Under the pieces are notes generated by a model that searched no databases, was not told the origin of the DNA, and saw only the letters and a program-made list of their open reading frames with translations. Both the position numbers and the translations under genes were made by a program. A stretch of DNA of 64,000 nucleotides from Utricularia gibba (Eukaryota > Streptophyta > Magnoliopsida > Lamiales > Lentibulariaceae), in NCBI GenBank assembly GCA_002189035.1, contig NEEC01000008.1:620001-684000 (forward strand), written 5' to 3'. Of this stretch, positions 6,379 through 42,297 are shown in pieces (the stretch's first letter is position 1; each line of letters opens with the position of its first letter).

Positions 6379-9202
6379 ATGGTTCTGGCGCGGATGAAGG
6401 AACCTGGCGGCGACTACAGGACTTTACGGCTGGGGAAGTACGAATTAGGCCGAACTCTTGGGGAAGGGAACTTCGGCAAGGTCAAGTACGCTACTGACGT
6501 CGAGTCTGGGCTTGCCTTCGCAATCAAGATCCTGGACAAGCGCAAAATCCTCGATCTCAAGATCGATGATCAGGTCAGTCCGTTCTGTCTGGTTTTCCGA
6601 AATCTGTTCTGCGATTTCAGATCAACTTGCGGTTACCTGTCGCTTCTCTGAACACGCTGAGATGAATTGCTCTGCAAGCGAAATACCGAACTCGCTTTCG
6701 GTTTAATTTTGTCTAATGGCGCTCATCGAATCTTTCCGCGTTCTAATTTGCTCCGTGATCAATGCCGATCTGGTTTTCAATCTTGTGACTCGATTGAAAA
6801 TTTGTTGCAGATAAAGAGGGAGATCGGGACATTGAAACTCCTAAAGCATCCAAACGTCGTCCGTCTGCATGAGGTAATTTGACTACTCTCCGAGTTGGGT
6901 CCTCCAGGCGCTTTGTCTTTCCCAACTTTGCGTGTTGGCCTGCGCATTCGATACGTCACCATTACGTTTCAATGTGCAAGTTGTGGATCTAGACTTAGAG
7001 TCTAGACCCGAGGGGTATTCGGATAAGAACAGATAAATTAGTGCGCCTTAGTGTATAATTCTAATACACCCGAATCTCTTACTTAGGAAAAGATTTAAAT
7101 GGTTTTCACCTATATTAAGTTTGGAAGATGGGGATTAACCATGCGCCCCTGTGTGAAGTTTTTAGTTTCTGCATGCAGCTGGATGCCATGATCGGTCAAA
7201 CACCCTTGTCTTCTTGTTGCTTTCGCATTGAATGGGCCTGAAAAATCTCTTTCGAGGATGGGTGGTTGATAAAAATTTCTTTCCAGGATGCAGCTAAATT
7301 GAATCTTGCGTGGAAATGCGGTGTCGAATTCTTATACTGCTTTGTGTTTTCTACCAGGTCTTGGCAAGCAAGGTGAAGATCTACATGGTCCTTGAGTATG
7401 TGGATGGATGTGAGCTTTTTGAAGAAATAGTAAGTGCGATGCAGCTTATCTTTTGTGTGATGGATGGTATACGTGACTAAACCAATATTCAGGCGACCAG
7501 AGGAAAACTAACCGAAGAAAAAGGCAGGAGGTATTTTCAACAATTGATTAATGGTGTCAGCTATTGCCACAACAAAGGCGTTTTCCACAGAGATCTCAAA
7601 GTACGTACCACCTATTCTCAGAACATGACGTCTGCCTTTACTTAGTATTATTATTTAACCGTTCTGATACAAAATGTTTGTTTTGTTGTTAAGCGCAGCT
7701 GGAAAATGTACTGATCGACGCAAGAGGCACCCTCAAAATTACCGATTTCGGGCTAAGTGCACTGCCTCAGCACTTGCGGGTATACCTGCTGCTTCTCCAA
7801 AGCTATCAGAACTTTCTTCTTCTTGCGAGTGTGCTCATACTTCTTTTGTTCACATGTGTAGGTCGATGGATTGCTGCATACAACATGTGGAAGCCCAAAC
7901 TATGTCGCCCCAGAAGTTCTTTCTAACAGAGGGTACGACGGTGCCGCCTCGGACACATGGTCTTGTGGTGTTATCTTGTACGTCATTCTCATGGGGTACC
8001 TTCCATTTGATGACCGGAATCTCGTCGTACTTTATCAAAAGGTATTGCCGTCATCCGCGCATTTGAATTTCTGGACGGGAGTGTACCTTAACAGTTCTGT
8101 TGATCTTCACCAAACCCACTCAGATTTTCAAGGGAGATGCCAAGATACCGAAATGGATATCTCCAGGAGCAAAGAACCTGATAGCGAGGATTCTGGATCC
8201 GAACCCCAAAACTCGAATCACCATTGATCAGATAAAAGAAGACGAATGGTTCAAACAAGGCTATGCTCCAATTTACCCTGATGAGGAAGACGAAAATGCG
8301 GATTGCGAATTATCATCCATACCTGAGGTGGTCAGTATATTTTCGAAAGCTTTGCTTAATCCTCACCAGCTAAATTTCATGAAAAACACCTGAAACTGAC
8401 ACCTTCCAAAGCCTTCGGATGCAGAGCAACATTCCGAGTCGCCCCCTGTTATCAACGCTTTTCAGCTTATTGGAATGGCATCGAGTTTAGATCTCTCAGG
8501 CTTCTTTGAGAAGGAGGTAAACATGAATAATATATGTCAGAACCTGCTGCTATACTTGCTATAGTCATGTCTCAGTTCTTAATCTTGCAACAAGTTGTGA
8601 GATAATAAAACCTGCTCAACATGATCATCATCAGGATGTCTCTGAGAGAAGGATACGGTTCACCTCCAACTACTCCCTAGAGAGCTACTGGAGAGGATTA
8701 AGAACACAGCTGTTCTGATGGGTTATCATGTCCACAAGAAGAACGGAAAGGTCAGTTCAGACAGAATAAAACACTTGTTCAAGAAAAAAAAAAAAAAAAA
8801 AAACCTTTCCCTTGGTTGGAGTTACCAAAATCTAAAACATTTGCAGTTGAAGCTGATCCGAGGGTGCAAAGGTCAGAAAACTCCTGGATGCGTTTCAGTC
8901 ATCGCGGAAGTAAGTGACAAAATAGACTTTTAAGTAGTTACATGCGCACATCATAACTCTAACAAGTTATAACTGGACCAGGTTTTTGAGATAAGCCCCT
9001 CATTGCGAGTAGTGGATTTGCAAAAGGCGGAGGGTGATCCTATTGAGTACAGACAGGTGCTTATTCCACGCCGTTGCACACACCTCTCATGTGCGTGCAT
9101 ACACCTTTTCTGACCTGATAATTTTAATTGCTGCAGTTCTGCACACAATTGTCAAACGAATTGGGTGTCTCTAGTATCCGAGAGGAGCCTAACTCACAAT
9201 GA
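6379..9202 (+). CDS. CBL-interacting protein kinase, CIPK1-like, frameshifted in the C-terminal domain
   Basis: Twelve exons: 6379-6573, 6811-6873, 7358-7429, 7493-7600, 7699-7779, 7862-8041, 8124-8330, 8412-8516, 8635-8750, 8847-8909, 8982-9056, 9137-9202. The kinase domain has the glycine loop [10 protein letters not shown], the Lys in [30 protein letters not shown] and [19 protein letters not shown] motif ([19 protein letters not shown]) follows, which binds CBL calcium sensors. The intron-rich structure and sequence resemble CIPK1/17/21. Exon 9 is 116 nt, one short of a codon multiple; read as given, translation stops at 8716-8718 (364 aa) and the PPI domain is lost. One extra C in the run 8675-8677 restores the frame through the conserved last exons to TGA at 9200-9202 (443 aa). 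Confidence 0.9.
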
Positions 9203-9590
9203 TTTTGGAAGCATAAGCTCTTTGGCTACTGATGGCGCAACAAGGCCACATTCAAATTTAAACCCCGGGGGAGAGTATATTTGTCTCATTGGTATTTTTT
9301 TATAGCTTGCGACATGTAAAAAGGGTGGGTTTTTTTTTTTTTTTTTTTTGTTCCTATTGGAGAGGAAGAGTACCAGTTTTACTGTGTAACTTGATTCATG
9401 CACATACCTGTACAGAACATAATTCATGGAAGGCCTTTGGGATGTTCTCAGGCCGGAGGTCTCTCTTCCATTTGAAACTTTTCATTCAACACTGTCTTGT
9501 ATTGACCGTCTCTATACTCCAAGTTCCTCATTAGCTCAACCTGCAACAAGAACCGAACATAACAAAAGGCTGGTTGTGCATCGAAAAAAA

Positions 9591-11448
9591 TCATGCTGCT
9601 TCGGCCATAGTCACCTGTTTCTGGAACATATCAAATTCTTCTGAGCTCAGAGAGCCATCGTTGTTGGAATCGAGAAGCTGCATCATCTCCCGGGCATCCT
9701 CTCCTTCCGCTCCGAGTTCTTCCATTACATCCATGAGCTCCTGAATGCTGATGATACCATCTCCATTTTTGTCCAGCAGGCGGAAGACTCGGCTTCTATT
9801 ATCAACTTCAGGGTCCTTGTGATCGTTGGATGGAAAATCTCTGAGTCGAAGAGCTGCTAGTTCTGCAGCAGCCATCATGATGGCCTTCAGCCGCCTCACC
9901 TGAGAGGATTAGCAACATCATGCTGGAGGGTTAGCGGTGTCAATTCATGGGGCAACAATTCATTCTTCCATCACCTCTTCTGGATCAGTGAGGCCTCCTT
10001 TGTATAGTGCATGAGATGCAGTGCCACCAGCCGCCAAAAGATCCATCTCTGAGGTACGAATCTGTATCTCCATCGATGGTCTTTTCTTGCTTTCCTCACT
10101 AACATCAACCGCCAAGTGCAAACTTCTGTAACCGTTAACCTTGGGGTTCATGATATAGTCCTTGGACCTGCCGGGTATCTCTCTCCACAACGATTGGACT
10201 ATCTCACGTGCTCGGTAACAGGCCTTTTCTCCAACTGCAGAAGACTCAGGTCCGGATGCACATCTCAGAATTACTCTTAGACCCAAGATATCGTTCACTT
10301 GGTCAGGTTTCCTCCCATCTCTGAGCAGTTTCTTCATAGTGCTGTAACGACTCTTAAACCGGCCTTCAATGGAGATGCCTTCCACGAGTTCCATCAGACA
10401 GGGGTCCGATTTCAGGGACTGGAGCAGCTTTTCCTTGTAGATGTCGATAAGAGGGTTGCTTCCATTCTCATGGCTCCTCAACCAGGAATCCACATAAAGG
10501 TATGAGTATGGAAACAAGTACTGAAAAGACCGATCCTCAAGCTCATGGGATAAAGCGTTCATCCCAACAGCATGTGCCAGTGGAGCATGTATCTTTATAA
10601 CCTCCAGAGCCATGCTCTGCTGCTTGTAGCGAGGGAGGTGGTTAAGGTGCCTCATCATGTCCAGCTTCAGAACCAAGTCCAGAATTATTGCCCTGGAATC
10701 GTAGAATGTGAAGCAGAATCTCCTCAGTTCTGAGGCACTCTCATCATCTAACTCTCCCATCTTCAGAGAAAGGTTCCTCAAGCGCGAGCTTTCATGAAGT
10801 AGATGAGCAGTAGCTGTTCCAATCCTACCCCTAACTTCAGACATCGGTATTCCACGTCCATCTACAGCTTCCCTTAGAAATCCAGCAGAGATAACCTCAG
10901 CATCCATCTGCAGCCAGTTTTATAATCAGAACAGGCATGGCCGGAGGAAGGGAGGAGGCATAGTTAGTTGACCTGAAGATCAGCCAGCATAGTAGCGATA
11001 GACAGGGCTTTGGACAGCGGAGCCCGGCCATCTGGAAGCAGCGGCAGTGATTGGAGAACGGGAATCGAGACCTTGAGTGCCTTGAAAAGCAAGCGTGAGG
11101 AGCTACTGGACAGCGCCGCCGTGTGACTCATTCTCTCCGTGAGTTCATTAAAAGCCCCAATCAACTCCACCACCATCTTCCCCCCGGCTGCTCCAGCGTC
11201 ATAACCGCTTCGTTCGAAGCTGCTCGCACCATCAACAGCTGATGCACGATCCTCTTGCTACTGCGCCCTAGATTTGCCGAGGAACAATAAACGAAGCGTG
11301 ATTCGACGAATTCTCGTTGGGGTAAAAAAGCCCTAGCGTCCGCATATCTGAAATCAACCGCCATCACGGCACGAGAGTTGAGTTGAGGCGCGCCTTTCCC
11401 CGGCCACCGTCGTCTGCAGCTGGTGCCTGGATGTCCCTGAGAGGCCAC
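9591..11448 (-). CDS. CRSH: Calcium-activated RelA/SpoT homologue (CRSH), chloroplast (p)ppGpp synthetase
   Basis: Three exons: 10973-11448, 10908 side starting at 10907 down to 9975, and 9899-9591. The N-terminus looks like a transit peptide. A degenerate HD-type domain follows (DAEVISAGFLREAVDGRGI). The RelA/SpoT synthetase domain carries GRFKSRYSTMKKLLRDGRK, NDILGLRVILR, NGYRSLHLAVDV and MEIQIRTSEMD. Two C-terminal EF-hands are clear: DKNGDGIISIQE and DSNNDGSLSSEE. This order is specific to plant CRSH, which makes (p)ppGpp in chloroplasts in response to Ca2+. The first exon is frameshifted at the C run 11180-11185: one more C joins the transit-peptide frame to MVVELIGAFNELTERM. The start is 11448, or the in-frame ATG at 11364. 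The CIPK gene is convergent, 389 bp away. Confidence 0.92.
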
Positions 11449-11627
11449 GTCAACAACCGCAATTTGTAGTTACAGGAAAGTTAGATGATGTTCAGCACGA
11501 TTTTTTTAATTTAATTTTACTTGTGCAAAAATATTGTTATTAGAACAATAAATATTTTTTCTAATTCTTCATCCATTCTTTCTCCTTTCAAATAGATAGA
11601 TACTTAGAATATGTTCTAATCTATTTC

Positions 11628-12745
11628 TTATTTTAATTTTCCTTCTCGTTAGAATGAGAATTAATAGAGATTTCATTCTCTATCTCATTTAAGAAGTAAA
11701 ATGCACATATAGCATGTTTTATTTGAGAGGGATAATGCAAATTTAATAACAATGTAAATAAAATTTATGTTAATAAAAATATATTTTTCAAGCATTTATA
11801 ACGACTTATATAGACGTTTGTAAAATATACAATATTTTTGGAAAAATATTTATAAACATTCAAATGATACATTATATATGTTTAGAAAATATATATTTTT
11901 TAAATATTTTTTATAAACACCTATAAGAGTCATTATAAATGTTTCAAGAATATATAACATTTTTAAAAATACGTTTCCAATCACTCATATGATCCGTTAT
12001 TGGTGACGGTAAAAAATGTTTAAAAAATAATGTATTTTTTGCAATAGGGTTTTGATGTTTTTTAGTGAATTGAAAAAATTATGGACAGAAAAGTAAATTC
12101 ATTTACTATTTTTAGAAAAAAGTCAAAATGAGAATGTAAAAGTGGCGTCTATATCATTTTAAAGGAGGAATAAATTAAAAAGGAGAAAAAAAAAAGTCAT
12201 GTAGAACATCATCCTAATTTTACATTTTCATTTTGATTTCTCTCATAAAAATATTAGATGAATTAAAATTTTTATCCATAATTTTCTCAATTTATTAAAA
12301 AATATTAAATCCATATTACAAGAAATATACTATTTTTTAAACATTTTTGTCTAAGCATCTATAATGATTCATGGAGTTGTTGAAAACGTATTTTTAAGAA
12401 TATTATATATTTTCCAAACAATTATAGCAACTTTTGTAGATATTAAAAACATTTAAAATAATATATTTTTCTAGTGTAAATAACATATCATGTGGATGCC
12501 TAGATATTCATTTCAAAAAATGATATATATTTTACACTCATATATACGAATCATTGTAAGTGTTTAAAAAATATATTTTGTTACTAGGATAAAAATATCA
12601 TTTACATTATTATTAATTTTGCATTCTCATTGTTGAACAGAGGATGTTATATGTACATTTTACTTTTTAAAATGAAAACAAAATGAAATCTCCATTAATT
12701 CTCATTCTAAAAAGAATTAAAATGAAAAATGAAAAATGAAAAATG
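11628..12745. mobile_element. AT-rich element with long diverged terminal inverted repeats
   Basis: The left arm (about 11628-11800) and the reverse complement of the right arm (about 12570-12745) align along ~170 bases. Shared blocks include tagaatgagaattaat, gagatttcatt, gtaaaatg, cacatata/tacatata and aatgtaaat. The interior holds several loose ~60-75-bp direct repeats of the type ataaacacctataagagtc and its relatives. No transposase reading frame is present, so it looks like a non-autonomous DNA transposon. The exact ends and target-site duplication could not be fixed; the element may extend to about 11475 and 12775. Confidence 0.65.
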
Positions 12746-12949
12746 AGAATTACATCACAACATTCTATTACTTTCCTTTTTTTTTTTTCTCTCTCTCTCT
12801 CGCTCGATCCAGAGCATTTTATCGAGTCCGAGAATCTTAGAGGCCCAGCCCAGAAGGACACCATTGCTACTACTTTGCAATGACCAAATTCCTTTAAGCC
12901 TGTGAATTTCTTCAAGAATATGGAGACGAAAAGGGGCAGAACACACGCA

Positions 12950-13360
12950 TTAGATTTGCTTATCAGAATTCAACCGCTGCAGCCACTCCGTTGGGCTACG
13001 GCCGATGAGGGATGGACGCCCCGACGATGAATGTATCAGGGGTGTCCCTTCATCCACACCCAGATTTGTATCAGAAGAAGTGCCGTTCCCTTCTTCGCCG
13101 CTGCCTCCGTCTGGCTGATGATGTACATCCCATGTCTTCTTCTCCTGCGCGATGGTTCATGTAACATGGTAAGTATCACAATGAGAATGATCCCAGCAAG
13201 CACGATCCGGCGTTCCTACCTTGCTGATCCTATCAGGGATGGCTTCCGAGATGTGTGATGATGTCCCAGCTTCCCTGACCTTGAGATAATTGTACAGCAG
13301 CACGCCACACAGAGCTGCGGAGGGTGACCACGAGTGGAGTAGTAAGTGGCAGGAAAGTAT

Positions 13361-13392
<32 letters not shown>

Positions 13393-15450
13393 GGTATTGC
13401 GGCGCCAAGGCCGAAGAAGGGTCGACACTCTACCGATGGCGTATCCGATGATGTTCAGCCCCGTAATCTTGGATTCTGGGAAGACCACGGTTGAGAGGGC
13501 TATCAGGATCCAGTCTTTCAAAACCCCAGCCACTCTAACAGTCACAGCTCCAGTTCTACCAATCACCAGGAATATAGAGAAGTTCAACATCAGAGCACAG
13601 ATGGCATTGGAGAAAAAGATCCAGAAGTTGAACTGAATTTGAGAGATGTCCATCCCCGGCTTCTCGAGAAAGTACCAAGGAACAAAAAGAAACACAAAGC
13701 TGCATTTCAGATACAATGATGACATGTATTAGTAGATTCCTGAATATCATTGCCATTTGTCTATCTAAAGGCAGCTAGACAGTGGAGAGGCCCATGTCAG
13801 AACCCTCTTTTGTTCTTTCTTTAAAGCAAGAAGTTCCCCTTTCATCGCTTACCAGAGACTGAGAAAATGTACCCCAAAACAGACACATGTCTAAAGCAGC
13901 ACAATTCAAATGAACAATTTAACTCTATTCCTAAATCCAGTGGGCGTGCTGAGGAAAAAGGAAGGTCACAGATAGTTCTAATACCTGCAAGGAGCAATAT
14001 AGTATAAGCTCGTGAATGGATTCAAGACTAAACCCTTCTTCTGTAAAAGAACTTGGGTCAAGACCAATCTCAGAGCTTCTGCAACTATACCTGTAACTTG
14101 GTAAACCGTCCCGATCACATTAAAATGAATTTCCCCGTAGGATGAAATGAGGACCCCAACACTGACCAGCACCATATTCAAGAAAACATCCCATCTCAGT
14201 TTATCAGTACCACACAGAACAGCCACTACAAACGTTGCCACCGGCACTGCCCAGTCAGTATTAAGGATGTAAGTGACATTCAAAAACCATTTCATTGGGA
14301 ATTAAAGCGATGGATAAAATACAGTTACATACTAAGTGCTTTCAGCATCTGAATAAATGCCACAGATATATGTAGATAAGCCGTGTTACCGAACCTGCCA
14401 TATAATTTAGACATAGTTTAAGCTCATAGTCCCAAAAAATATCAACCAAGACACCTAGGCCTACTAGCCTCTGCCAAAGAACAAAAACTCAGATAAATTA
14501 TTTGACATCAGAGACCATAACAGTTATCATTTTTGCCAATACGATTTCCTTCATCATATTTTGTGTGCTTTGGATGATCATGAAATAGCCATAGATGCAG
14601 GATAACTATTCTCTAGACATTCTGCCGGACCACACAAATTGTACAAGTATTGCATCATTCACAACACTTCATCAGCAAGATATCCAGTTTAATGGCGTCA
14701 AAGGCACAATTTGCATGGTGGGATTGGAACATACCAGAGACTAGATGCGAAAAAAGCACTTATTGGTACCACGCAAGTGGCATATCTGTCACCAATCACC
14801 AAAAATAAGAAAAAAAAAAGATATGGAAAAGAAACCATCAATGACAATACTAAAGAGCTCCCTTACATTCGAAATGTCATTTTAACGGGCGATACGACCT
14901 GCAGATAAATTAGCTGTCAGCTGTCAAAAAATATATTTCCTGAAGGGAAAATCTTATGACAAATCAAATCGTCTACCTACTCATGATAGAGACCAGGATC
15001 ATACCCATAGCCTAACACCTACCCGGCTTCGGGCCTTTTCAACCATGTATCAATAGTATGAACCACAAAAGAATACTTATCCCACCCACTTAACCGAAAC
15101 CAAATTTTCAGATGGCATCAAACAGCGGCGATACAATGTAGTAGAAATGAATCATCTGAGGCATGATATTTACCTTGAAGACACGAATGACCAAAAATGC
15201 TACTGACCCAGAGAATGCCATATGTATCATTGTCAGCGTTATAGGAAATGGAAAATTGAAATACTTTGGAGAGAGCACCCACTGCAAACGGAAAGCAAAT
15301 GTCATGTGAAATTAATCTGCAGTAGAAGAAAACAGTACAGAGTGAAAGGAAGTCAAGAAGTGTGACCTTGTTATACAAGATAACCCCAGATGATAGCGTA
15401 ATGTAGATTAGAAGGTAGAAATACGTCAAGATTTGTGCCCGAGTGACCAT
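12950..15450 (-). CDS. Probable sugar phosphate/phosphate translocator (At3g17430/At1g48230 type)
   Basis: Nine exons give 384 aa: 15367-15450, 15174-15281, 14867-14898, 14735-14785, 14333-14394, 13985-14246, 13434-13699, 13220-13314 and 12950-13144. All are GT-AG with consistent phase. The product is a multi-pass membrane protein of the drug/metabolite transporter superfamily, triose-phosphate translocator family. Motifs include YFNFPFPITLTMIHMAF, YATCVVPISAFFASSLW, YGEIHFNVIGTVYQVTGI, NPFTSLYYIAPC and AVTVRVAGVLKDWILIA. Relatives exchange phosphorylated sugars or similar anions across Golgi, ER or plastid membranes; the substrate of this subgroup is not known to me. The C-terminal tail is hydrophilic. 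The frame is intact. An intron at about 13364-13392 contains a GACA microsatellite. Confidence 0.9.
13364..13392 (+). repeat. (GACA)n microsatellite
   Basis: Seven consecutive tetranucleotide units lie inside an intron of the translocator gene. Confidence 0.9.
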
Positions 15451-18737: not shown

Positions 18738-20507
18738 ATGGGCGGTTCCGATTACAGCGCTGGAGCTCACCAGAATTCTCACGCACTTCACATCGCGGCT
18801 TGGGTCTCAGGAGGCATTTCTATTGGCTTCATAATTGTACTCGTTCTTGTGCTGCTGTTCTGCTATTCCCTTAGGAAATCCAAGAAGGGGGGACGTTACC
18901 CACAATCCGGACCCCAGATTTATCTACAGAAATCAAGGAGATCACTGTGGACCAGAACTCGGCAAGCCATGTTGATTATAAGCGGTGCGTCTTTGATGTC
19001 CCTGAGAACTTCACCGACAAGAGCGCCGGAAAAGGGTGGGCTTTTTCCAGACTGACAAGGCGAATAAAAAAAACGCAAATGGTTGTAGCAAATCAGGATC
19101 TTCTAATATCTCGTCCGTTGAATCTGGGGAAAAGAAAATGATGGTTTGTTCATCCCCTGGTGATGGCCTTCCGGAGTTCTCTCATTTGGGTTGGGGTCAT
19201 TGGTTTACATTACGGGATCTTGAGATAGCAACCGACAAATTTTCAAGGGAAAATGTGATCGGAGAAGGTGGATATGGAGTGGTTTACCGGGGCACGCTGA
19301 TCAATGGAACAGCAGTCGCCGTGAAAAGGATTCTGAACAACCTGTAAGTTCCCGGAGAGATAAAAAAAAAAAGACTTTCATCCAACTGTTTCACATGGTA
19401 TTATCATGGGCTGCTTTTTACTGCAGGGGACAAGCCGAGAAGGAATTTAGAGTTGAAGTAGAAGCTATTGGCCATGTGAGGCACAAAAACTTGGTTCGGC
19501 TTCTTGGTTACTGCGTAGAAGGCACTCACAGGTAGGTCTTAAGATTCACGATTCCCCCTCACCTGTGTCTTGATGGCTACTTCAAATTTCAGGCTGCTGG
19601 TTTATGAGTATGTTAACAATGGAAATCTCGAGCAATGGCTCCATGGAGCCATGGCACCAGGGCGCCTCACCTGGGTGGCTCGAATGAAGATCCTGCTCGG
19701 CACTGCTAAAGCGTGAGTAGATGAATCACAATGCTTTTCATCATTTTCTTCTGCGCATCATCCCTTGGCTGTTTCATGTGATGAATGGTTGCGCTGGCAG
19801 TCTAGCTTACCTGCACGATGCGATCGAGCCGAAGGTTGTGCATCGCGATATCAAGTCGAGCAACATACTGATCGATGATGATTTCAATGCTAAAATATCT
19901 GATTTTGGACTGGCCAAGCTGCTGGGAGCTGGGAAGAGCCACATTATCACCAGAGTCATGGGGACCTTCGGGTGAGGGAGCAACATACTGATCAATGGAA
20001 CTGTTCTTTCTTCTTGGGAATGTGCAACTTAACATTACGGCCTCATCTGAGCAGATATGTAGCTCCAGAGTACGCAAGCAGCGGTTTCTTGAACGAGAAA
20101 AGCGATGTTTTCAGCTTCGGTGTTGTCCTCTTGGAGGCTATCACAGGACGAGAACCAGTAGACGACACACGCCCTGTCCACGAGGTGCATCCTCGTCTTC
20201 ATAACTAACCAAAAAAAGCTTACAGTTGTTGAACCTGTGGGTGATGATGATGCAGAAGAACCTTGTGGACTGGCTGAAGATGATGGTTGCAACCAAGCGG
20301 TCGGACGAGGTGATCGACCCGTGTCTTGAGCCCAAGCCATCGACTTCCGCCCTCAAACGAGCCCTTCTGACAGCACTCCGGTGCGTGGATCCCAACGTCG
20401 AGAAACGGCCGACCATGAGCCAAGTGGTCCAGATGCTGGAGTCCAAAGTGTACCCGGTTTCAATAGAGGTTCAGACCACTTCATTCAAGATGCCTCTGTT
20501 TCATTAG
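18738..20507 (+). CDS. Receptor-like serine/threonine kinase, At2g42960/At5g18500 type, with two frameshifts in exon 1
   Basis: Six exons: 18738-19343, 19427-19531, 19593-19712, 19801-19971, 20055-20184, 20256-20507. The protein has a short extracellular tail, one membrane helix ([19 protein letters not shown]), a Ser-rich juxtamembrane region, the family signature [19 protein letters not shown] and a full kinase domain: [11 protein letters not shown], Lys in [27 protein letters not shown] and GYVAPEYA. This clade lacks a large ectodomain. Exon 1 is in three frames: one G seems missing from the G run 18887-18892 and one near 19034-19040. With both restored the exons sum to 1386 bases (461 aa). 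As given, the first frame stops at 19055 and no single frame links the membrane helix to the kinase. Confidence 0.87.
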
Positions 20508-21576: not shown

Positions 21577-24500
21577 ATGGAGGCCAAGTTCGGTAGAAAC
21601 TTGCACCGTTTATGTGAGCCTGTTGTGTCAGATTTGAATGGAGTCGGAAAAAGGAGTATTGAGTGGGATTTGAACGAATGGAGATGGGACGGAGATTTCC
21701 TAAGAGCTTCTCCGCTGAACCCAGTGCCATCAGACTGCAGCAGTCGACACCCTTTTGGCCCCGATATTCCAGTAAAGAATGCTTCTCTAAATTTTTTGGC
21801 GTCATCGTCTGTGGAAGCCATACTGGAAGATGGGAGGGAGAAGAGAGACTCAGAGAAAAGGAGGCGATATATTGACGTGAATGAGGAGCATGAGAATGGT
21901 GAAGCTGGATCACTTGATTTGATGTTGGGTGACCAAGTCTTCCCGATCGTGGATAAGGACGCTGATAAATCGGAAAAGAGTGGGAAAAAGTCCAACTTAT
22001 GTGGTGAACAATCTAGTCGAGCAGTTTGTCAAGTTGAAGGTTGTAGAGCTGATCTGAGTAGTGCCAAGGATTACCACAGACGGCATAAAGTGTGTGATGT
22101 GCATTCCAAGGCCAGCACAGCTTTAGTCGGAAGTATTATGCAAAGATTTTGTCAGCAGTGCAGCAGGTCACTTCTTAGTTCTGTTTCTTTTCGCTACTGC
22201 TTCGCCTTAACTTTGTCATCCGTGATATGCCCCACCATATCCAATTCTGTGATGCTTGTTTTATTTTCGTGCATAAGTTTGTTGACAGTGGCACTCATTT
22301 GCATTTGTGTTGATTCATTATTTTGACTCCTCATCCGTAGGTTTCATGTTCTTGAAGAATTTGATGAAGGGAAAAGAAGTTGTCGCAGGCGGCTGGCTGG
22401 ACATAATAAACGGAGGAGGAAAGCACATCCAGAGAATGCAGTTGGTTCTACTGCAGTTAATGATGAGCAGCGCACTAAATATCTGTTGATCAGTCTGCTG
22501 AGGATACTATCGAATATACAATGTAGGTTGTTACATTTACTAACTCATCTGAATGTGCTGAGAGTTCCAAATTTTACCGTGTGACTGGTAATTGATGTAG
22601 CTTGATGATGTGAAGGAGTGACTTGACCAATCTGTATGAATTCTGACATGCTGCAATTGGTTGTTTCTGTGATATGAACGCTTTATCTTATGTTTTTCGC
22701 AAATATGATTTTTTTTCATGAGACTTTTCGACTTTCCGTGTGTTGTCTTCTCTTTTTAGTCGTTGTTCACCCTGCAGTTAATTTCAACTCTCCGCATTTT
22801 GTAATTGCAGCCAGCAGCTCAGATCAAACAAAGGATCAGGATTTGCTTGCCCATCTTCTAAGAAATCTTGCGACGGTCTCTGGGTCTACTAATATTTCAA
22901 ATCCTAATGGACTGTTACCTGTATCTCCGGATTTACAGAATGCCGGAACGTCATGTGGAAAAACTATCAGGGTACTAGACTAAATTCAGGCTCAAATACG
23001 CTTCAAGAATGATCTAATCTGCCTGAGTGCATCTTCCTGCAGGAAAATGGAAGTTCTGATGAAAGACCCTTGCCTCTGCCCCAAACTGGTTTGGTGTCCA
23101 AGGATACTCTGACTGATAGTGCTCAAGTTGGAGCAGCACGTGTATCAACTGCTCTTTGCAATGCTATGCCTTCAGCGAAGTCCATTGGCTGTGAAGGAAG
23201 GGTAAAAATGAGCAATATTGACCTGAACAATGTGTATGATGATTCTGAAGATTGCACGGAAGATTTGGTGGATAATATCCCCTGGAAAATGTATCACCAT
23301 ATGTCTCACCTTGGTCTTTTAAGGATTCTCAGAGGTCTAGTCCACCTCAGAGTCAATCACCATCAACATCAAGTGGAGAGGCACAGGTGCATTTGATTTT
23401 TAAGTCACCTCGTTCTTAAGAGCTTGTAAGAATTAATTCGAAAGTATTATGTGTCTTTGTTGAACACTTTGTCTTTTGCGCTTGCAGAGTCGTACAGATC
23501 GGATTGTTTTTAAGCTTTTTGGGAAAGATCCAAGTGATTTTCCTCTTGAACTGAGAAAGCAGGTCATTTCCTGGTTTTACACTTAAGATATTTTTTTTTT
23601 CTATCGAGTGATTCACAATATCAAAGTCTTACCTTGTTGAATCCAATGCCAGATGATTGATTGGCTATCCAGTAGTCCTTCTGATATTGAGAGTTATATC
23701 AGACCTGGTTGCATCATATTAACGATTTATGCATGCATGGATAAATCAAGCTGGGACGAGGTAGTTTTCTCATCTCTCAGGCACTCATATCTAATTGGCC
23801 TGAAAAAGGGACACTGTTGACACATGTGATCACTTCCATTGCAGCTAAACTGCAATCTTCATTCCAGTTTGAAGAGGCTTCTTGATGCATCTTCCAATCC
23901 CTTTTGGACAACTGATTGGATCTACACTAGAGTACAGCATCGTGCCTCTTTTGTATACAATGGTAGCATCAAGCTTTATACCCTTTACACACCTCTTCAT
24001 GTTGCACTTCTGATGATGTCAAAAATTGTTTTTTGAGAGCGAAAAAATAAAAATACACGTTGTTTCACTGCAGGCCAAGTTGTTTTGGATATGCCTGTAC
24101 ATCTCAGAGCCCTTGAGAGTTGTAGGATATCCATGATCTCACCAATTGCTGTTTCTTTCTCCGAAACAGTTCATTTTTCTGTTAAGGGTTATAACTTGTC
24201 TGGCTCAACTTCAAGGTATCATTTTTTTCCATAATCAAGATTTTGTTTTATTATAATATTCATTTCAATCCTGCAAGCTTCATTCTAACTGGCAGTATCT
24301 TATCTTAGAGTGGTTGTTACACTTGTATTAGGTTACTTTGTGCTCTCGAAGGGAGGTATATTCTCCAACAAAGTTGTGCTGATGTGGTTGGAGCTGATTC
24401 TTATGCTGATAATGGAGGGATCCAGTGCCTTCAATTTTCCTGTGCGGTGCCGCATGTTGTTGGGAGAGGATTTATTGAGGTGATGTTGTTAACCTTGTTA

Positions 24501-31951: not shown

Positions 31952-33151
31952 CTAGCGTTTGGGAGGTCTCTCGTCATCTTCACCATCACCATCATCATCA
32001 TCATCTGAATCAGCTTTGCCACTGGGTCTCTTCCTCTTTGGCGGTGCCTCGACCTTCCCTTCATCGTCATCGCTATCATCCTCTTCGTCGTTTTCGTAAT
32101 CTTCTCCACCATTCTCTCGTGGTTCAAAATCACTCAAGTCTTCCTCGTCTTCAGCACGGCCGACGGGTCTGACCAGGTACTCTGTCCCTAGATCCTCCTG
32201 TGGATTAAACCACGAAGGTGAAATAAAGTAACCCCTAAGTGGGACGGATGGTTATACGATAGGGGATTTGAGGGTTACCTCTTCTTGGCTTTCCAAATCG
32301 TCATCATCTTCATCGCCATCATCCGCTTCTCCATCTTCGTTCTCATCATCATCATCTACCAACATAATGGGCTGTTGTCTGCTGCTCCCACCAGCACCAT
32401 TCTTCAGCACATCTTGCTCCTCACCCTCGTCATCAACCTCGCCTCCTTCTATTTCTTCTCGGTCATCATCAACGCCAATATCCTACCAAAAAAATTTACC
32501 ACTCCATGGAATTGGTCATTTCGTTCTGGTCGCAAAATCATTCGCATGAAAGTGGTTAACAGAAAAAAAAAAAAAACCAAATTTGGAACTTCAAGAAAAA
32601 AATGGTGCTTCCTCGAACTGTAAAAAGGTGAGACTCATAGTGGCGAACTTCTCAAATATTTTACACTGGAAAAAAAAAAAAGATGTATCCCCAAAGGTAC
32701 TGACAACCGATAGACCCTGGAAACCCTAGAGAAAGAAAAAAAAAATTGCGCAAAATAGGAAGCAAGCAAGAACATCAGATCTGAAGGAATTCACCTAGGG
32801 CTTAACTTCAATAACAAGTAGGGGCACCAAAAACCGAAACTTGGACATCACTCTACCAAAAAAGCGCGATTCGAGAATAATAGCAGCATACCTCTTCCTC
32901 ATCTTCCTCATCGTCGTCGTCGTCGTCGTCGTCATCATCGTCGTCGTCGTCGTCACCGTCCCATCTTCATTTTCTCCGTCTCCATCCTCTTCATCGTCAT
33001 CAACGGATGTGATAGCCGGCTCTCTGGCGCCGCCGGTGCCGTTAAAAACTTCCTCCTCTTCCTCGTCGTCCACCTCATCCTCTACATCATCGGCGTCATC
33101 TTCACCATCGCTATCACGCTCAACTAGTTTATCTTCCTCAAGAACAGCCAT
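31952..33151 (-). CDS. Highly acidic Asp/Glu-rich nuclear-type protein, frameshifted in exon 1
   Basis: Three exons: 32892-33151, 32279-32482 and 31952-32197. The product (236 aa after frame repair) is dominated by Asp/Glu runs, with conserved islands MAVLEEDKLVE, QQPIMLVDDDDENEDGE and EDLGTEYLVRPVGRAEDEED and a basic patch APPKRKRP near the C-terminus. Plant databases often label such proteins VHS3-like or spermine-binding-like by composition alone; the true role is unknown to me, possibly a histone or ribosome-assembly chaperone. Exon 1 shifts from Glu/Asp codons into Thr codons after GENEDG; one extra G in the run opposite 32960-32962 restores the Asp run up to the splice site. The opposite strand gives meaningless Ser/Val-rich frames. 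Confidence 0.75.
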
Positions 33152-33663: not shown

Positions 33664-33706
33664 CACTCTTTGGAACTTACCGGCGGTTGGTAAGTTCCAA
33701 AGAGTG
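33664..33706. repeat. Perfect 18-bp inverted repeat with 7-base loop
   Basis: cactctttggaacttacc is followed by a 7-base loop (ggcggtt) and then the exact reverse complement ggtaagttccaaagagtg. It lies in the 3' flank of the minus-strand gene ending at 33870. The stem is too short for a plant miRNA precursor. Confidence 0.95.
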
Positions 33707-33869
33707 ACGCTCGAGGATGGCACCCTGACATGAACATCCACGGTTAACAGAAGATTCAAAAAGTGTATAAAAGACAAAAATGCATGGCTGTGCTTCTATG
33801 AAGTTGTGGACTACCAGAAAATCAGTGAACTAGCACACTCCTCTTGTGTTTGGATGTCGCCCCAAAGAT

Positions 33870-34358
33870 TTAACGATGAGCTTCGGATGCAACTTGAAAA
33901 AAGATCACGGCGCAAAAGAGAATGGTGAAGAGCGTGGCCATCAAGTTGCCTGCAGATGCGGTTGATGAAGAAGATGCTTTTGCTGCCTTCATTTTCTCCA
34001 GAGCATATTTTCTCCTCTCAATTCGGGCGCGCTTGATTTTGGTGATCTCGGAGATCTCCCTTATAAGCTTTTCATCAGCTGCATCCAGAGACAGTAAGCC
34101 TCTAGGAGGACGAGGAGGTTTGGGAGGCTTCTTGGTATTGTGAGGCATGCACTTTCCCTTATTTGGTTTCTCATCCGCGCCCATGGGACATCCGCTGGCG
34201 CTCTTCAGGTCAACGGAAAGGATCAGTTCATCCGCCTTCTTAGGTGCACCACAGGCATTAAGGTCAGAAACATCATAGCTTTGAGCTCCTTTGGTTATAC
34301 ACAGAGAGCTATCGATGTAGATAACAACTTCCCCTGGTTCGAGTTGCGTATCATCCAT
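33870..34358 (-). CDS. Plant protein of unknown function with C-terminal membrane anchor
   Basis: Intronless frame of 162 aa. The N-terminal half is acidic and Cys-containing (MDDTQLEPGEVVIYIDSSLC, then YDVSDLNACGAPKKADELIL). A Pro/Lys stretch (TKKPPKPPRPPRGLLSLD) precedes a basic helical segment (ITKIKRARIERRKYALEKMK). A single hydrophobic helix follows near the C-terminus (MATLFTILFCAVIFFQVA), so the protein is likely tail-anchored with a cytosolic N-terminus. I recognise the pattern from uncharacterised plant proteins but not a named family. Confidence 0.75.
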   Translation of the reverse strand: MDDTQLEPGEVVIYIDSSLCITKGAQSYDVSDLNACGAPKKADELILSVDLKSASGCPMGADEKPNKGKCMPHNTKKPPKPPRPPRGLLSLDAADEKLIREISEITKIKRARIERRKYALEKMKAAKASSSSTASAGNLMATLFTILFCAVIFFQVASEAHR

Positions 34359-36791
34359 TACCTTCTCGTCTTCCCCAGTTCACAACAACCTTGACTCCTA
34401 AAACTAGAACATAATACCAGGCTCGCATGAAAGCTCAGAAAAGTAGAGAACAGAACCGGAAGAAACAAGGACATTAAACGAAGCAATGGAATATAGCTAC
34501 AGAATCCACCAGAAGTTGCGATTTTTAGAACTAGGCACAGAACAAATCCCCAAAAGTTGCGATTTTAAACCAGAAATGAGTTGAGCCCCAAGGAAAGAAG
34601 GAAAACCCAGATCTCCAACGGCTAATTAAGTAAGCAAAATCCCAATTGGAGCCTACAAATGTGTAACAGAAGTATGACTGACAAACCTACCTCAGGAACT
34701 TCTCTTAATCTCGATTTTCAGAGTCCGTGGACAGCATTGACTTAGAACAGATGCTAGAGAAGAACAACATCTGGAGTCATCTGCAGCGGGAGTGATGGAG
34801 AAAGAGACCTGCTCGGTGCTACTATTTCAAATTATCCGTTTGCTCTTCAGTTCTTCTTCTTCTTCTCTCCACCGACACACCTCCTGGAGGACATTGCGCC
34901 CAAATATCAGAAGAAACCACCCTTCCACAATCATTTTTTATTACTAGGACGTAGTTTAAAAATAATAATAATAATAATTTAGAATTAATTCTTACTTTTA
35001 TTACCCAAAATGATTTTAAAAAATAAATTAAATAAACCTTCATTTTTATTAGAGTGTGATTAGATGATTTCATTAATAGCATATTTAAATTATTTATATT
35101 TTAATAAACATATATTATATAATTATCATTAAGCTTATTTTTAAATTTTATTATGTTAAATAGATATAGCTATAAGAAAATAGTAAATATCTCAATTACT
35201 GTTTAAAAAATCAAGATTGACTTTATAATTAGATTTAATAAGTGTTCTGAAAACTTTTTGAATGTTATTTTTACTTTTGAAAGAATAAAAAGTAAAAATA
35301 TAAAATTTTTAAATAAGTAGAAATGGAAATGATTTATTATGAAAAAATTGATTAATGAAGATCGGGAGCTTAAGAGTGAAAAACATTTTCGGAAATTTGA
35401 GGATAAAAATAGAAATAAAAAATAAAAGTAGCTATTTTCTTATTTTTAATTCTATCTCATTTTTCATTATATCCAAAAATATTTTGTCAAAAGCAGAAAT
35501 AAAAATAAAACTTATACTGCACCAAATTATTTTTGATAAACACAGAAGTAATGATCGTACTCAAAATTTTTCAGAACAAAATTTTAGTTCAATTTAATTC
35601 CATTGTACAAAAATTCGATCCAAAATTGTGAGTAAATATATATATATGTATATTTGTGAAATTTATTTTCAAAACATTGATCCTGATTCCCAACTAGTGT
35701 ATCTGATACGTGGTATTAGATTATAAATATTAATAAGTACATCAAAATTTCATATTTCCTATATACAATAAAATTTATGAAGAATTAGAATTTAAATTTG
35801 ATATCCATATCTCACTTTTCATTTGATATTTTAATCGTTCATTTATTTTTTATTTATATAAAAAATTATAAGAGCATAATTTGTTTTCGTATAAATAAAA
35901 TATTTTTTTCATGATACGTACAATTTATCGATCAAACATATTTCATTTCATTGAAAAAAAAAATACATTCTTTGTAAGCATCATTTGGGCGGACGGCTGA
36001 CCACTGAACCAGGAAATGCATCTGGGCCCGAGCCCAAAGGTTCCAGACGTGGAGTGCTGATCGATGGATCAAATGGGTCACAGCGTCACCAGCCCGGGCC
36101 GTGAAGAAGGAGGGCTGAACTGAACTGTTTCGAGTGTCCATGGGAATTAGGGCTGGTAAACATTTCCGCAGGGATGGAGTAGCATAGAAAATTTATAGAT
36201 TAACCATGGCGAATCTGCAGGATTCTAACCCAAGCTGGGTTATAGTAAACTGACTTGGTCTCAAGCCTTTTAGCATCATGCCCAGATTGTGTTGTGTCGT
36301 AATCCCTTGGTCCACCACCGAACTCGGACTTCAAGATGCATTCTGCAACATGCCATGCTCTCCCATGAACACCCAAGAACGGGAAATGTAGAAGAACACC
36401 CCATGAGATGGGATTAAAACATGGTTTTTTTGGATTGGTATGCAGCTATATCTTGTGGTTGAGGAGGGATTATGCTGCAAAGGGAAGATGTCAGTTTGAT
36501 TCCTTTGATATTCAAACTTGTCGTTCCATCAGACTGGTTGGAATCTGAAATAGTGCAGGGAGTCTGAGAAACCCTAACCCTAAAGTCATGTAGACTGAAC
36601 ACATTCCGCCTGAAAGTCAGGGAGTTGTTAATATGGGGCTTCCAGGTCATGCTGGATGAACATTTTAGGTAAGAGTTCTAGGAATTTCTGAAGTGGGTTC
36701 ACATACAAGAACACCAATCTCCAAAAGTAGTCAAGATTTTGACGTGCCAACGAACAAAAACAAAAAAGAGAGATGAATTACTGCTTGCTGA
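34359..36791. other. Intergenic region, AT-rich in the middle
   Basis: 34359-34830 is probably the leader and promoter of the tail-anchored protein gene. 34930-35930 is strongly AT-rich with no recognisable gene or clear terminal repeats. 35960-36790 has a more even composition and probably includes the WRKY 3' UTR. No coding sequence is supported. Confidence 0.5.
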
Positions 36792-37954
36792 TCATACTAA
36801 TTCCAGTTTGTCCTTGGAATCATCCTGTAGTAGCAGTATCTGAGGTGGAAGCATGTCTTGAAGAAGCCCATGGTCTCTGAATGAAGACGACGGAGAGGAG
36901 CAGAAAAATGGTTTTTTGTCTCTAGTTAACGGGAAAGAAGGTAGCACAGGACAAGTACTAGTAGTATTAGTCGCACAAGAGCTCAAAGGTGGTGGCACAG
37001 GTACCACGTTAGTGCTAAAAACTGGGCGGTGGTGCAGGGGATCTGGAGAGGAGTGAAATAGGAGATCGAATGGAAGGATGTCGCCAACAGCAACAGGGAT
37101 GTCAGAGGGAATTCCGAAGGTGGTAGAGAGAGTGACGGGGCAGGGATGCTTGTGTGTGCCTTCATAGGTGGTGACTACAATGGATGGATCAGCGGATGCT
37201 CTTTCAACTCTCTTCTTCACCCCACAGGCTGTGCTTGTGCACCGGTAGTAGCTCCTGCAGCACCGGTGAGAATGAGGAGAAGGAGGAGAGCATGAATGAC
37301 GTATAGGGAGGGAGAGGGGTGGGACCTGGGGAACGGGCTGTTCTTGACTGCTTTCTGGCCGTACTTTCTCCACCTATATCCATCGTCCAGATGATCGATC
37401 TCAGTCTTGTCATGAATGCAAACCGGGGTTCTCTTTCCCTTTTCCTCTTCTTCGTCTTCTTCATATCTGCTGCATTCTCCCCCATCTTCAACTCCCCACT
37501 GCAAAAGCCAAAGCAAGGCCGAACAAGACACCACCGCGTATATAAATGATATCCAGAGCAACGCAGACGAAAAACAAAATGGAAGAGTAAAACTAAGTAT
37601 TAGCCAGCCCACAACTTACTGCCTAGCAGGTTGATCTCCCCGGTTGTATGCAGTGGAGGGGAGCGGTGGTGGTGCCTCGGTGGAAATGGAAGAAGAATTT
37701 GGGGTGGGTGGGGAATTTCTTGCGTTCACCAGCTCAGATTTGTCCGCCGGCGCCACAGCTGTTGCGGGAGGAAGCAAAGGCAAATCCTCATCATCGTCAA
37801 ATATTCTGAAACTAAAACCACTATGGCTACGCCTATGCCTACTCAACAGCATATCCACGAAACCTAACGAGCTGGTGCACTCTTCTCCGACGAACCCACC
37901 ATCCCCCCCTCCTCCCTTCTCCCAGCAATACGATTTTCTGCTGTTTTCCTCCAT
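36792..37954 (-). CDS. WRKY transcription factor, group IIc, with a frameshift at exon 2
   Basis: Three exons: 37620-37954, 37326-37498 and 36792-37254; 323 aa after frame repair. The DNA-binding domain carries [20 protein letters not shown] with the WRKYGQK heptad, then a C-X4-C-X23-H-X-H zinc finger ([15 protein letters not shown] to TYEGTHKH). The intron at the conserved Arg codon and the C2H2 spacing place it in group IIc, near WRKY23/48/57-type proteins. It should bind W-box TTGAC sites. Exon 1 ends in phase 2 at a clear gtaagt donor, but exon 2 must be read one base out of phase; one extra G in the run opposite 37494-37497 reconciles both splice junctions. No C-terminal HARF-type motif is seen. 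Confidence 0.9.
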
Positions 37955-40204
37955 CCTTGAAGATCAGAGACGTACATACATGGATGGAATCTTCCCTGTT
38001 TGTGTTCACACGCAAGCACAAGAAGGTCCAAGAAAGAGAGAAGAGACAGAAGACACCAACGGCTCCTCCTCCTCCCGCTCCGCCTTTTTTGCCCTTGGCT
38101 TTCACATCACTCCTCTAATGTTACATACATATTACGGGGTCGGTCTCTGTAAAATTCTAGTTCCCGATGGCCCCCCCTCTTCCGCGCATTTATTTATTTA
38201 TTTGCCTGTCTTTTACAGGGATGTGTTCGGTGTCCTCGGGATCGGTGTGCTACTCTTCCCCCTTAATCTTCCTTCATACGGATGAGAACAACAAGAACAA
38301 GCTCATGCGGTGGCTGAACAAAGAACACAGAGAGATAGATAGATAGATAGATAAATAGATAGGTAGGCTGTTTTCCTTTCCTTGTAACAAGAGAAGAATC
38401 CAACGGGGTTGGTTCTTCTGGTCTGGAACTGTAATTAAATGTAAGGGGGGCGGGGTATGTGAATTAAATGAGGTGGGTCCCGGGGGCTAGTATTTAATTT
38501 CGGATATAGGTAGGGCCGGCCCCCGTCAACACCCCCTACCCTGACTGTGCCACCTTCTTTAAAAAAAAAAAAAGAAAAGCATGCGACGGCATCTTTCAAA
38601 GCATCATCGGGTTCGTGGATTTAGACCTGTTCCCACACAAGTATGCTATCAAATGTGTTTAAATTAAGGAGTAGATAGATCTGATGAGTAAATATGATAT
38701 ACATAATTAAAAAAATTAGAATCAATTAATTACTATTGATTTATAATTTATTATATATTTATTTATGTTAGTTTTAATTGTCAATATGATATTATTTGTT
38801 TTAAGAAAATGAAAATAGAGTTGTTAGGGCAACTCCATCTGTGTTTTCCCAGACTGATGGAGAAATTGGTGAAAATCTCCATATCACCTCCATCTCAATA
38901 ATGAACTCTTCACCCCTTTAAATAGAGAGGTTACAACCAAAATGACTTGGAATTTCCTGATAAAGTTTTCTCTATGAAGAAAATCTGGATGAAAGAAATC
39001 GTGATACCTTGTGCAATGCATTTTTATTTGGTAAAAAAATGATGATTGTTGGAGATAAAATGAGAAAATGTTCAATGTATAAAAAATGAAATAGAAATAT
39101 GATATGGAAAAAAATAAATATGATGTGAAGTTAATATAAATGATGAAATACTGTATACTAATGTAAATATGAAATTCAATTAAATAATAAATATTTATTA
39201 TATTAAAAAATATTATTATCAATCGATTAATATTGATTTATAATTTTTTATATATTTAATATGAAACTTAGGTAAATAATAAATATAGATTATATTATAA
39301 AAAGTTAGCACCAATCTATTACTATTAATGTATAATTTCTTATATATTTGATTATTTAAATCAAACTTAACAAACACATAAAAGATAGGTGTTATGCGCA
39401 GCAGGGGCGACGAAATGAAAGTGGCAGGAGGCGTGGGCGCAAAGGCAAAGTGCATATGTAAAATGTTTTCCCTTCTGAGTTTGGACATGTGCATTGGTAA
39501 AGATGCGGAGGCAGCATGTTATGTTTGGGTGAATGATGATGCGATCACGAAGCCCTCCTCCCCGAAACATGTAGGTTATGATGATTGTAGCAGCAGCCCG
39601 TTGGGACCATCTCCTCTTAAATCCCCCTCCTGCCCAATCCCATTGGGCGCCAGGCCCCCGCGGCGGGGACTGGGAGGGAGGAGCTACCGCCATCCGCCAT
39701 GCCTGAAGCAGCCGCAAGGACGCCGGAGGCAGCAGCAGCCGCCCCTCCAGTCCAGTCCAGTCCAGTCCATTGAAACTGGAACCCCCCCACCCCGGGCTTC
39801 AAGGGAGAGCGCGATCACCGGAGCCGGCCTGAAAACAAAACAAATCAGAAAAGAAAGGAGACAGGGTAACGTGTGCGTCGGATGAGTTGGCACATGTGGT
39901 GCTGGGAACAAGGATGCCGTGTGAAACATGAGTTGATTTGTCAACACGGTTTCAGAACAGACGCAGGTCAAAGATTCTCAACACCATCATCATTTCACCA
40001 CAACTGCATGCATCATGCTTCCGCTTCCCACTTAAATATTCTTTTTTGAAAGAAAAAGTAATACTCTAATATTATTTACTAAATTTATCTAATAAAAACT
40101 AGTTTTATATTTAATGAATAATACTAAATATTAATTTTTATTAGGAATAATATGTGTTGTTTAATATAAAATAAAATTTTATATCTTTCTGTACGGTCAA
40201 AGTA
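37955..40204. other. Intergenic region between WRKY and HYPK genes
   Basis: 37955-38560 is the WRKY promoter and leader, with a GATA microsatellite at about 38332-38363. 38680-39360 is very AT-rich and contains the repeats listed separately. 39400-40000 is GC-richer with a (CAGTC)n run near 39748-39770; the reading frames there resemble nothing known. 40030-40200 is AT-rich again. Confidence 0.5.
39168..39345 (+). repeat. Two ~88-bp diverged tandem repeats, with a third partial copy at about 38695-38765
   Basis: Each unit has the order attcaattaaataataaata (or its variant with acttagg), then a TTATATTA-rich core, then tattgatttataattt (or tattaatgtataattt) and ttatatatt. The third copy near 38695 shares attactattgatttataat and the following AT-rich block. 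Confidence 0.6.
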
Positions 40205-40275
40205 AATGGGCTTAGTGCCAAACACATTTTCTCCAGTTATGGGCTTAGGGTTTGAAATGGGCCGTATTAGAGGCT
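40205..40275 (+). promoter_or_regulatory. Telo-box and TGGGCT/TGGGCC promoter elements of HYPK
   Basis: A telo-box (cttagggttt, about 40244-40253) is surrounded by several ATGGGC[TC] motifs between 40206 and 40290. It lies ~200 bp upstream of the HYPK start codon. Confidence 0.65.
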
Positions 40276-40440
40276 GGGCTAAGGAAATGGGCTCATTATA
40301 GGGTCCACGATACTGCCGTTGCAGTTGATGGGAGAAGACGGAGGTCGTTGCACTTTCCCGTGAAGAATAAAGAGGAGGAAGAGGAAAGGAGAGCCGGATC
40401 GGAGCAAATTGTTCGTGCGGCGGAAGGGAGAAGCATAAAG

Positions 40441-41038
40441 ATGGAGGCTGGAGAAGAAGGCGTTGACAACATCGTGGACTCTAAGGACCTTCAGAAGCAG
40501 ACCAAAGCTTTCGATAAACTGACGGACCGGGTGGAGGATCGTCAGCTGGACTCCACTCGAGTCCAGGAGGTTCCGTTCTCTCCCTCGCTTGTCCTCTTTT
40601 GTGCTTTCTCGGTGACGTTTTTTTTTTTTTTCAATGGCCGGTTTCAGGCCATGGCTTCAATTGCTGCTTCTAAAGAAGCTGACATTCATGCCGCGCGATT
40701 GAGGTAGCATTTAGGGATTTCATTTTCTATCAACGTTGCTGATTGTTCATCTATTCGCGCTTGTTGGAGTGGGTGACCGTAAAATTGGTTCGTTGGCCGA
40801 CAGGGAGAAAGAGCTCGCAGCCATTAAGATCAATGCTGCGGATGTTGAGGTCATTTGCAACGAACTCGAGGTGAGAGTGCCACCCACCCTGCCCCCGTTT
40901 TTTTCTCTTACCGGATGGTGGCTTTACTTCTCCGACATTGACTGAATTCCCGTGCAGTTGGACAGGAAGTTGGCTGAGAGAACACTGCGTGAGCACAAGG
41001 GAGATGCCGTCGCAGCCATCAGGTCATTGCTGCACTGA
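40441..41038 (+). CDS. HYPK: HYPK (huntingtin-interacting protein K) homologue, NatA-associated
   Basis: Four exons: 40441-40569, 40648-40703, 40804-40870 and 40958-41038, giving 110 aa. Conserved stretches are KLTDRVEDRQLDSTRVQ, AMASIAASKEADIHAARLR, EKELAAIKINAADVEVICNE and LDRKLAERTLREHKGDAVAA. The C-terminal part is the UBA-like NACA/HYPK domain. HYPK binds and regulates the NatA N-terminal acetyltransferase at the ribosome. Size and motifs match the Arabidopsis homologue At3g06610. The start at 40441 is the first ATG of the conserved N-terminus; an in-frame upstream ATG at 40252 is very unlikely. The frame is intact. Confidence 0.93.
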
Positions 41039-41368
41039 TAACAACCATCAGAAGAACATTTTGCCGTTTGCATTTCTTTTGTGATGCATGTGATGTTGGA
41101 TTCAGTAAGGCTGGGGGGAGTTTCTCTCGGTTAGCTTTCATGGATGCATGAAAAGATGCTTTTCTGTATAACCCAAACAATAATCCAGTCCGAAGAGATT
41201 CAAAACTGAGGGTCTTGAACCACAACAGGGCAGGTGGCAATGATAAAATATGTATTTGCCTTTTGGTCAGGCTTGGTGCGTCCTCCATCTACATGCCGTT
41301 GTCCAGAGAGTGGATGGTAAGACAACTGACTTGGTTCCCCTGTACAGACAGTATGATGATACCATGAT

Positions 41369-42297
41369 TCAGGGGCAGAAAGAATATGGTTGATTTGGCA
41401 GAAGCTTCTCACGGGGGATGGGGGAATCGTAGTACTTGGTGTAGAGTGCATCTTCCCAAGGATGGCGGTGGAATGGCGCCTTCAGCCTCTTCTGGTCGAA
41501 TGTGGTGTCTGGGAGGGAGGGTGGAGGTTGTTTTAGTAAACCAGACAAGCGGAGTTGGGGCGACGGGAATGGAAGAACAACACACTCACCGATGAGACTG
41601 CAGAGGCCGTAGATGTACCCGATTTCGACGATCTCATCGATTTCTTTCTTTGACAACATCCCACTCTCGGCCAAGAAGAGCGAAATTGGAACGAGCAAAT
41701 GGCCTGTCTTCGCTTGATTCTGGCAACCCAGGGATTACGCAGTAGCTGAAACAAAGATGGAGAAATGATGACGAGAATCACTGGCTTGGAGCATAACCTG
41801 GCATGAACGGCCTTCTCTTTCATGCCTTCAACATACTCGTATGGGTAGAAGCATTCCCTTCTGGGTATCCATGCAACCCAGCACTAACTCTGTCTAAGGC
41901 GTCCTTGAAATACCGAGCAGCATCATCAATGGCACCTCTGAACCGTCGAAACACCTACAGTGCAGCGAGACAGGCACAGAAACCAGAGCCATTTGATGAC
42001 AGAAGGCTCAACTTTCAGCGCTTCGCCTGAACACAAGACTGGAGACAACGTCCTTATCCAGCCCTTGCTGTGAAGATTGTATTGCGAGCACCAGCTGCAC
42101 AAGTTCCAGGATCAACGCATAGCATGATATGTTTCGCTTCTCCAGCAATAAAAATGATTAAAGAGAGTATTCTCTTCTCTATGATCACCTGGATGAAACG
42201 AGTGCAGTACTGAGGAAGGCTCCCCTTGAACCACAACAAGGAAATGAGATCACCTACGCCAAGTCTGTGCTTGACAATGGATGACACTGGGGGGCAC
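41369..42297 (-). CDS. Conserved-looking multi-exon protein, family not recognised; two likely frameshifts
   Basis: At least five exons: one ending at 42189 (upper end near 42297-42318, uncertain), then 42035-42094, 41782-41954, 41590-41719 and 41369-41508, with good GT-AG sites. The reading gives IVKHRLGVGDLISLLWFKG, VLAIQSSQQGLDKDVVSSL, FRRFRGAIDDAARYFKDALD, CFYPYEYVEGMKEKAVHARL, GHLLVPISLFLAESGMLSKK and a C-terminus near HRHPWEDALYTKYYDS. The protein is helical, with no signal peptide or membrane segment. Exon 41782-41954 is 173 nt, one short of 174; a missing G opposite 41856-41858 explains it. A G run at 42289-42294 gives a second likely shift. The 5' end was not resolved. I do not know its function. 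It is convergent with HYPK. Confidence 0.6.

Follow-up and report, generated by a model that had tools for sequence, protein, structure and literature searches.

Most of the breaks in reading frame described here very probably arose because a long-read assembly systematically under-calls G/C runs, an artefact with which real pseudogenes are mixed. The stretch of DNA analysed, called the window below, spans 64,000 nucleotides (C414:620001-684000) of the 100.09-Mb Utricularia gibba genome of 516 contigs. A consensus under-call is preferred because the breaks are losses only, fall at G/C runs, increase with run length, affect all kinds of genes, are accompanied by few stops and leave selection intact. 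The enrichment at G/C runs is genome-wide and holds against both simulated and length-matched controls, and further support comes from purifying selection past the breaks and from breaks in HSP70 genes.

A sequence-only reading of the window had attributed up to ten frame breaks in seven genes to the loss of one base, each time in a G/C run. Eight of the ten sites do have a -1 break at or close to them, and all are losses, but six genes are affected and the breaks lie mostly rather than always in G/C runs. Three of the proposed repair sites (37494, 41856 and 42289) are wrong, and the last two are not under-calls. Each site was translated with and without one inserted base and then set against copies in the same genome. 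For five of the ten, in CIPK, the receptor kinase and SPL, the other copies show that one base is missing. The features of the window are as follows.

8672..8676, + strand: CIPK-type kinase, C run lacking one C (duplicate on contig C375 aligned base by base)
11180..11185, - strand: CRSH, one base likely missing at an assembled six-base run (overlapping frame break)
18887..18892, + strand: receptor kinase, loss of one base at an assembled GGGGGG (C375 duplicate open across it)
19022..19110, + strand: receptor kinase, second -1 break (frame offset relative to the duplicate)
23276..23281, + strand: SPL (SPL1/12-type), loss of one base at CCCC (break also present in the duplicate on contig C3)
25104..25112, + strand: SPL ankyrin region, loss of one base in CCTGTGGGCTG (three other copies open)
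32956..32966, - strand: acidic protein, a base possibly lost next to a GAY repeat (continuity of the acid-rich frame alone)
37400..37414, - strand: WRKY, true -1 break (ATGACAAGACTGAG) outside a G/C run (five open paralogues, PDB WRKY alignments, splice junction)
41380..42430, - strand: ATP-citrate synthase beta chain pseudogene, including 41856 and 42289 (syntenic C3 copy, PDB matches, several multi-base deletions)

Frame breaks in the window and their duplicates

The duplicates of the CIPK and receptor kinase genes sit together in one block on C375, while the SPL duplicate is on C3, with two more distantly related copies on C451 and C2. Window positions 6361-20545 match C375:3174860-3183790 with a dS of ~1.0-1.1, and positions 22700-42400 match C3:5291300-5343300 with a dS of ~0.41. 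Because the two blocks differ in divergence, they suggest two rounds of duplication.

In CIPK, the proposed loss at 8675 is borne out by the C375 duplicate, which reads CTCCCCTA against CT-CCCTA in the window. The C run is thus CCC as assembled and CCCC in the duplicate, where the frame is open. The receptor kinase exon is likewise one open frame in its duplicate, in agreement with a lost base at 18887. The second break in this exon, proposed at 19034, is also real, but its exact base is not fixed within 19022-19110; a frame difference of -1 separates the pieces at 18890-19021 and 19111-19344 in the window and is absent from the duplicate. At all three sites (8675, 18887 and ~19034), the exon pieces on either side are offset by -1 in the window but share one frame (offset 0) in the duplicate. 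In CRSH, which has no second copy in the genome for comparison, one base added at 11180 rejoins a single long coding frame, and the RelA_SpoT, HD and EF-hand domains are encoded downstream of the break. A lost base is therefore likely at this site. In the acidic protein, a lost base at 32960, within the acidic tract of the GAY repeat, is plausible from the continuity of the frame.

The dN/dS of the broken window genes relative to their duplicates is 0.17-0.28 (0.17 over 433 codons for CIPK), a measure that is blind to a very recent real loss. Relaxed selection after the break, a mark of pseudogenes, was not observed, the downstream values being 0.165 for the receptor kinase, 0.25 for SPL and 0.32 for CIPK (80 codons). 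Stops, multi-base indels and gains beside the -1 shifts were not found in these main genes but do occur in the ATP-citrate synthase beta remnant.

WRKY does contain a -1 break, but it lies outside a G/C run and near 37404-37410 rather than at the proposed 37494. The splice junction that joins exon 1 (to 37620) and exon 2 (from 37498) yields, without any repair, a conserved frame of 29 residues, a lead-in common to its WRKY paralogues. The extra C at 37494 is unneeded and merely masks the break at ~37404-37410, where the window reads ATGACAAGACTGAG and a paralogue ATGACCAAGACTGA, and where five paralogues are open. The lost base was perhaps a C from CC or an A from AAA, no G/C run of at least three bases being present there.

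The previously unrecognised gene at the end of the window proved to be of a different kind. A Pfam search with the window copy itself gave no match, and its identity was revealed by the syntenic copy at C3:5341790-5343235, which has kept the conserved core exons and matches ATP-citrate synthases in the PDB (best E 5.8e-98). Compared with the conserved exons of this duplicate, the window copy has deletions of 15, 16, 13, 98, 9 and 18 bases and is a real pseudogene. Because of this, 41856 and 42289 provide no evidence for under-calling. At 42289 the window holds two bases more than the C3 duplicate, and 41856 falls within the remains of an intron. The remnant adjoins a HYPK-like gene.

The SPL break common to two duplicates

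The break at 23279 in SPL is real and recurs at the same CCCC in the C3 duplicate, while the copies on C451 and C2 are open. If the DNA truly lacked this base, the loss would be older than the duplication (dS ~0.41), and the downstream part would have been free to drift ever since. However, 9 of the 13 differences between the window and the C3 duplicate at 23285-23400 fall at third positions of the corrected frame, with two at each of the other codon positions. Because the changes after the break favour third positions and dN/dS is 0.25, the mended frame is translated. The common break thus decides between artefact and real loss in favour of an artefact. The low downstream dN/dS leads to the same conclusion about translation for the receptor kinase and CIPK. 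The second SPL break, proposed in the GGG at 25111, is confirmed by the open C3, C451 and C2 copies, but the lost G was likely between TG and GT instead, a placement suggested by the conserved GPGG[LV]TPLH (GPGGLTPLH).

Frame breaks in other gene families

GRAS genes were chosen as a mostly intronless family, and 45 GRAS loci were subjected to frameshift-aware alignment with a profile made from copies in the same genome. Twenty-four loci are open and 17 broken; two contain introns and two are unresolved. The broken loci hold 23 break events, all of them losses (20 of a single base, three of two bases), and two in-frame stops. The events in EXO70, KCS and HSP70 are also losses and never gains. 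Apparent gains at three GRAS loci were rejected, L033 and L040 being introns and L046 an unresolved divergent locus. At five others (L028, L029, L030, L031 and L034) the breaks cluster at one place near the conserved PGGPP, whose codons allow long G/C runs.

Run statistics were based on 24 single-base breaks from the intron-poor GRAS, EXO70 and KCS families, the interval of each break comprising all placements at most 2 nats from the best one. Most single breaks are unplaceable to the exact base, and protein scores often cannot choose the missing base. For this reason, the attribution to G/C is drawn from run statistics and not from single sites. The intervals touch G/C runs of at least 3, 4, 5 and 6 bases in 21, 12, 6 and 5 of the 24 breaks, respectively. 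Among 215 random deletions simulated in open members of these families, the corresponding proportions were 27%, 5.6%, 0.9% and 0 (Fisher p between 1e-8 and 1e-5 across thresholds; for runs of at least four bases, 12/24 against 12/215, p 7e-8). Since the real intervals are somewhat longer than the simulated ones, length-matched random intervals were added as a second control. These gave expectations of 8.0, 2.1, 0.41 and 0.03 of 24, and none of 3000 sets attained the observed count at any threshold. The errors thus occur at homopolymers and rise with run length across G/C runs of 3 to 6 bases.

Enrichment at A/T runs was not found, runs of at least four bases being touched by 2 of the 24 breaks against 3.3 expected, a weak test because long A/T runs are scarce in exons. 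The 51 kb of open exons contain no G/C runs of seven or more bases and only three of six, while five breaks fall at assembled six-base runs. It is as if all true seven-base G/C runs in these exons had been shortened. Breaks away from runs of at least three bases are those of WRKY, L039 and L044. In BAHD and UDPGT (UGT) genes, which were read by eye without a profile and excluded from the statistics, further losses are found at G/C runs, including C4, C5 and G5. One candidate from this set, L090, was rejected as an intron. L086, from the same set, and L045 are probably real pseudogenes, with stops or larger deletions.

Three intron-poor HSP70 genes are each broken by the loss of one base, at a C3, G3 or G5 run. 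As HSP70 is an almost invariant protein, these are the cleanest cases.

C496:433,330-433,450: HSP70 break
C451:3,343,830-3,343,940: HSP70 break
C304:2,236,220-2,236,320: HSP70 break

The C3 break lies between IPR and TKKEQVFSTYSDNQPG (at ATCCCACG), the G3 break between PPAPR and GVPQITV (at AAGGGAGTC) and the G5 break ahead of HEVKAVAGDTHLGGE (at GGAGGGGGCACC). The G5 break recurs identically on a second, redundant contig, C241. Genes are therefore struck irrespective of function, namely six genes of the window and members of the GRAS, KCS, EXO70, BAHD, UGT and HSP70 families.

Two other features of the assembly were observed. Small contigs are in part redundant with large ones, repeating sections of them with identical match scores, as do C241:12834-18511 and C304:2235549-2238296, and likewise C316:31414 and C412:853787. 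Moreover, the sizes of C1, C2, C505 and C507 (8,500,000, 6,192,500, 3,452,500 and 642,500) can all be divided by 500 without remainder. Four of the ~26 contigs seen is far above chance, as if cuts had been made at round positions.

Origin of the breaks and precedent

Under the preferred explanation, the assembly consensus would systematically shorten G or C homopolymer runs by one base, with a risk that grows with run length. Exons bearing such runs would lose a base and break in frame whatever the function of the gene, while the plant's own genes would be intact. This process would account for the breaks in CIPK, CRSH, the receptor kinase and SPL, and probably for that in the acidic protein; the WRKY break is likewise a loss, but not at a run. 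The source of the error is probably the PacBio consensus of the HGAP/Quiver era, U. gibba being listed with 88x PacBio, HGAP and a contig N50 of 3.4 Mb (PMC5793159). A literature search found no stated frameshift problem in this assembly. According to one review, homopolymers bias the raw errors of PacBio only a little (PMC4719071). This counts against the explanation, although error in raw reads is not the same as the error that remains in a consensus. Also against it are the breaks away from runs (WRKY, L039 and L044) and the lack of enrichment at A/T runs, which are affected in the published precedent.

Real decay after whole-genome duplication, in a plant with a strong deletion bias, is very unlikely to explain the broken genes in general. 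Real pseudogenes do exist in this genome, namely the remnant of ATP-citrate synthase beta and, probably, L045 and L086, and a frame broken in one of two duplicates, as in that remnant, is what such decay would leave. But decay also brings stops, multi-base indels and gains, and the 23 GRAS events are accompanied by only two stops and no gains. The other window genes, unlike post-duplication pseudogenes, have no stops, gains or larger deletions, and purifying selection persists downstream of their breaks. Neither the bias toward G/C runs alone nor the breaks in the nearly invariant HSP70 is expected from decay. Losses at G/C runs through real replication slippage in the sequenced clone, whether somatic or germline and due for example to weak mismatch repair, would share the homopolymer-linked single-base signature, and the breaks do fall at runs; the chance of this is nevertheless slight. 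Slippage should also produce gains and strike A/T runs, the longer and more frequent kind in the window, and neither was observed. It also fails to explain an identical SPL break in two duplicates whose downstream frame is under selection. That last observation would fit DNA truly without these bases, with the frame restored through programmed ribosomal frameshifting or insertion editing of the mRNA, which would keep the downstream frame selected despite the assembled break. This would have to operate in dozens of unrelated nuclear genes that have no common slippery motif beyond the G/C runs and whose paralogues are open at the same places. We know of no such case in plant nuclear genes, and we regard this explanation as extremely improbable.

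Under-calling of G/C runs matters because false frame breaks make working genes look dead. With 17 of 45 GRAS loci and three HSP70 genes seemingly broken, gene counts, claims of gene loss and automatic annotation are unsafe on the unpolished assembly. True and false pseudogenes can be separated by the sign and place of indels, by stops and by codon-position bias relative to a duplicate.

The closest precedent is the PacBio RS II genome of Clostridium autoethanogenum, in which all but one of 243 discrepancies were missing single bases, most of them in homopolymers, and 142 CDS were affected (PMC4687164). The losses in that genome were confirmed by Illumina and Sanger sequencing, whereas those in U. 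gibba were deduced from comparisons within the assembly. In both, single-base homopolymer losses scattered across the genome give rise to many false frameshifts. They differ in that C. autoethanogenum was affected at both A/T and G/C runs (11 of the 24 sites in an example table were G or C, in a genome of 31% GC; PMC4687164), while the exons of U. gibba are enriched for breaks at G/C runs alone, down to runs of three bases.
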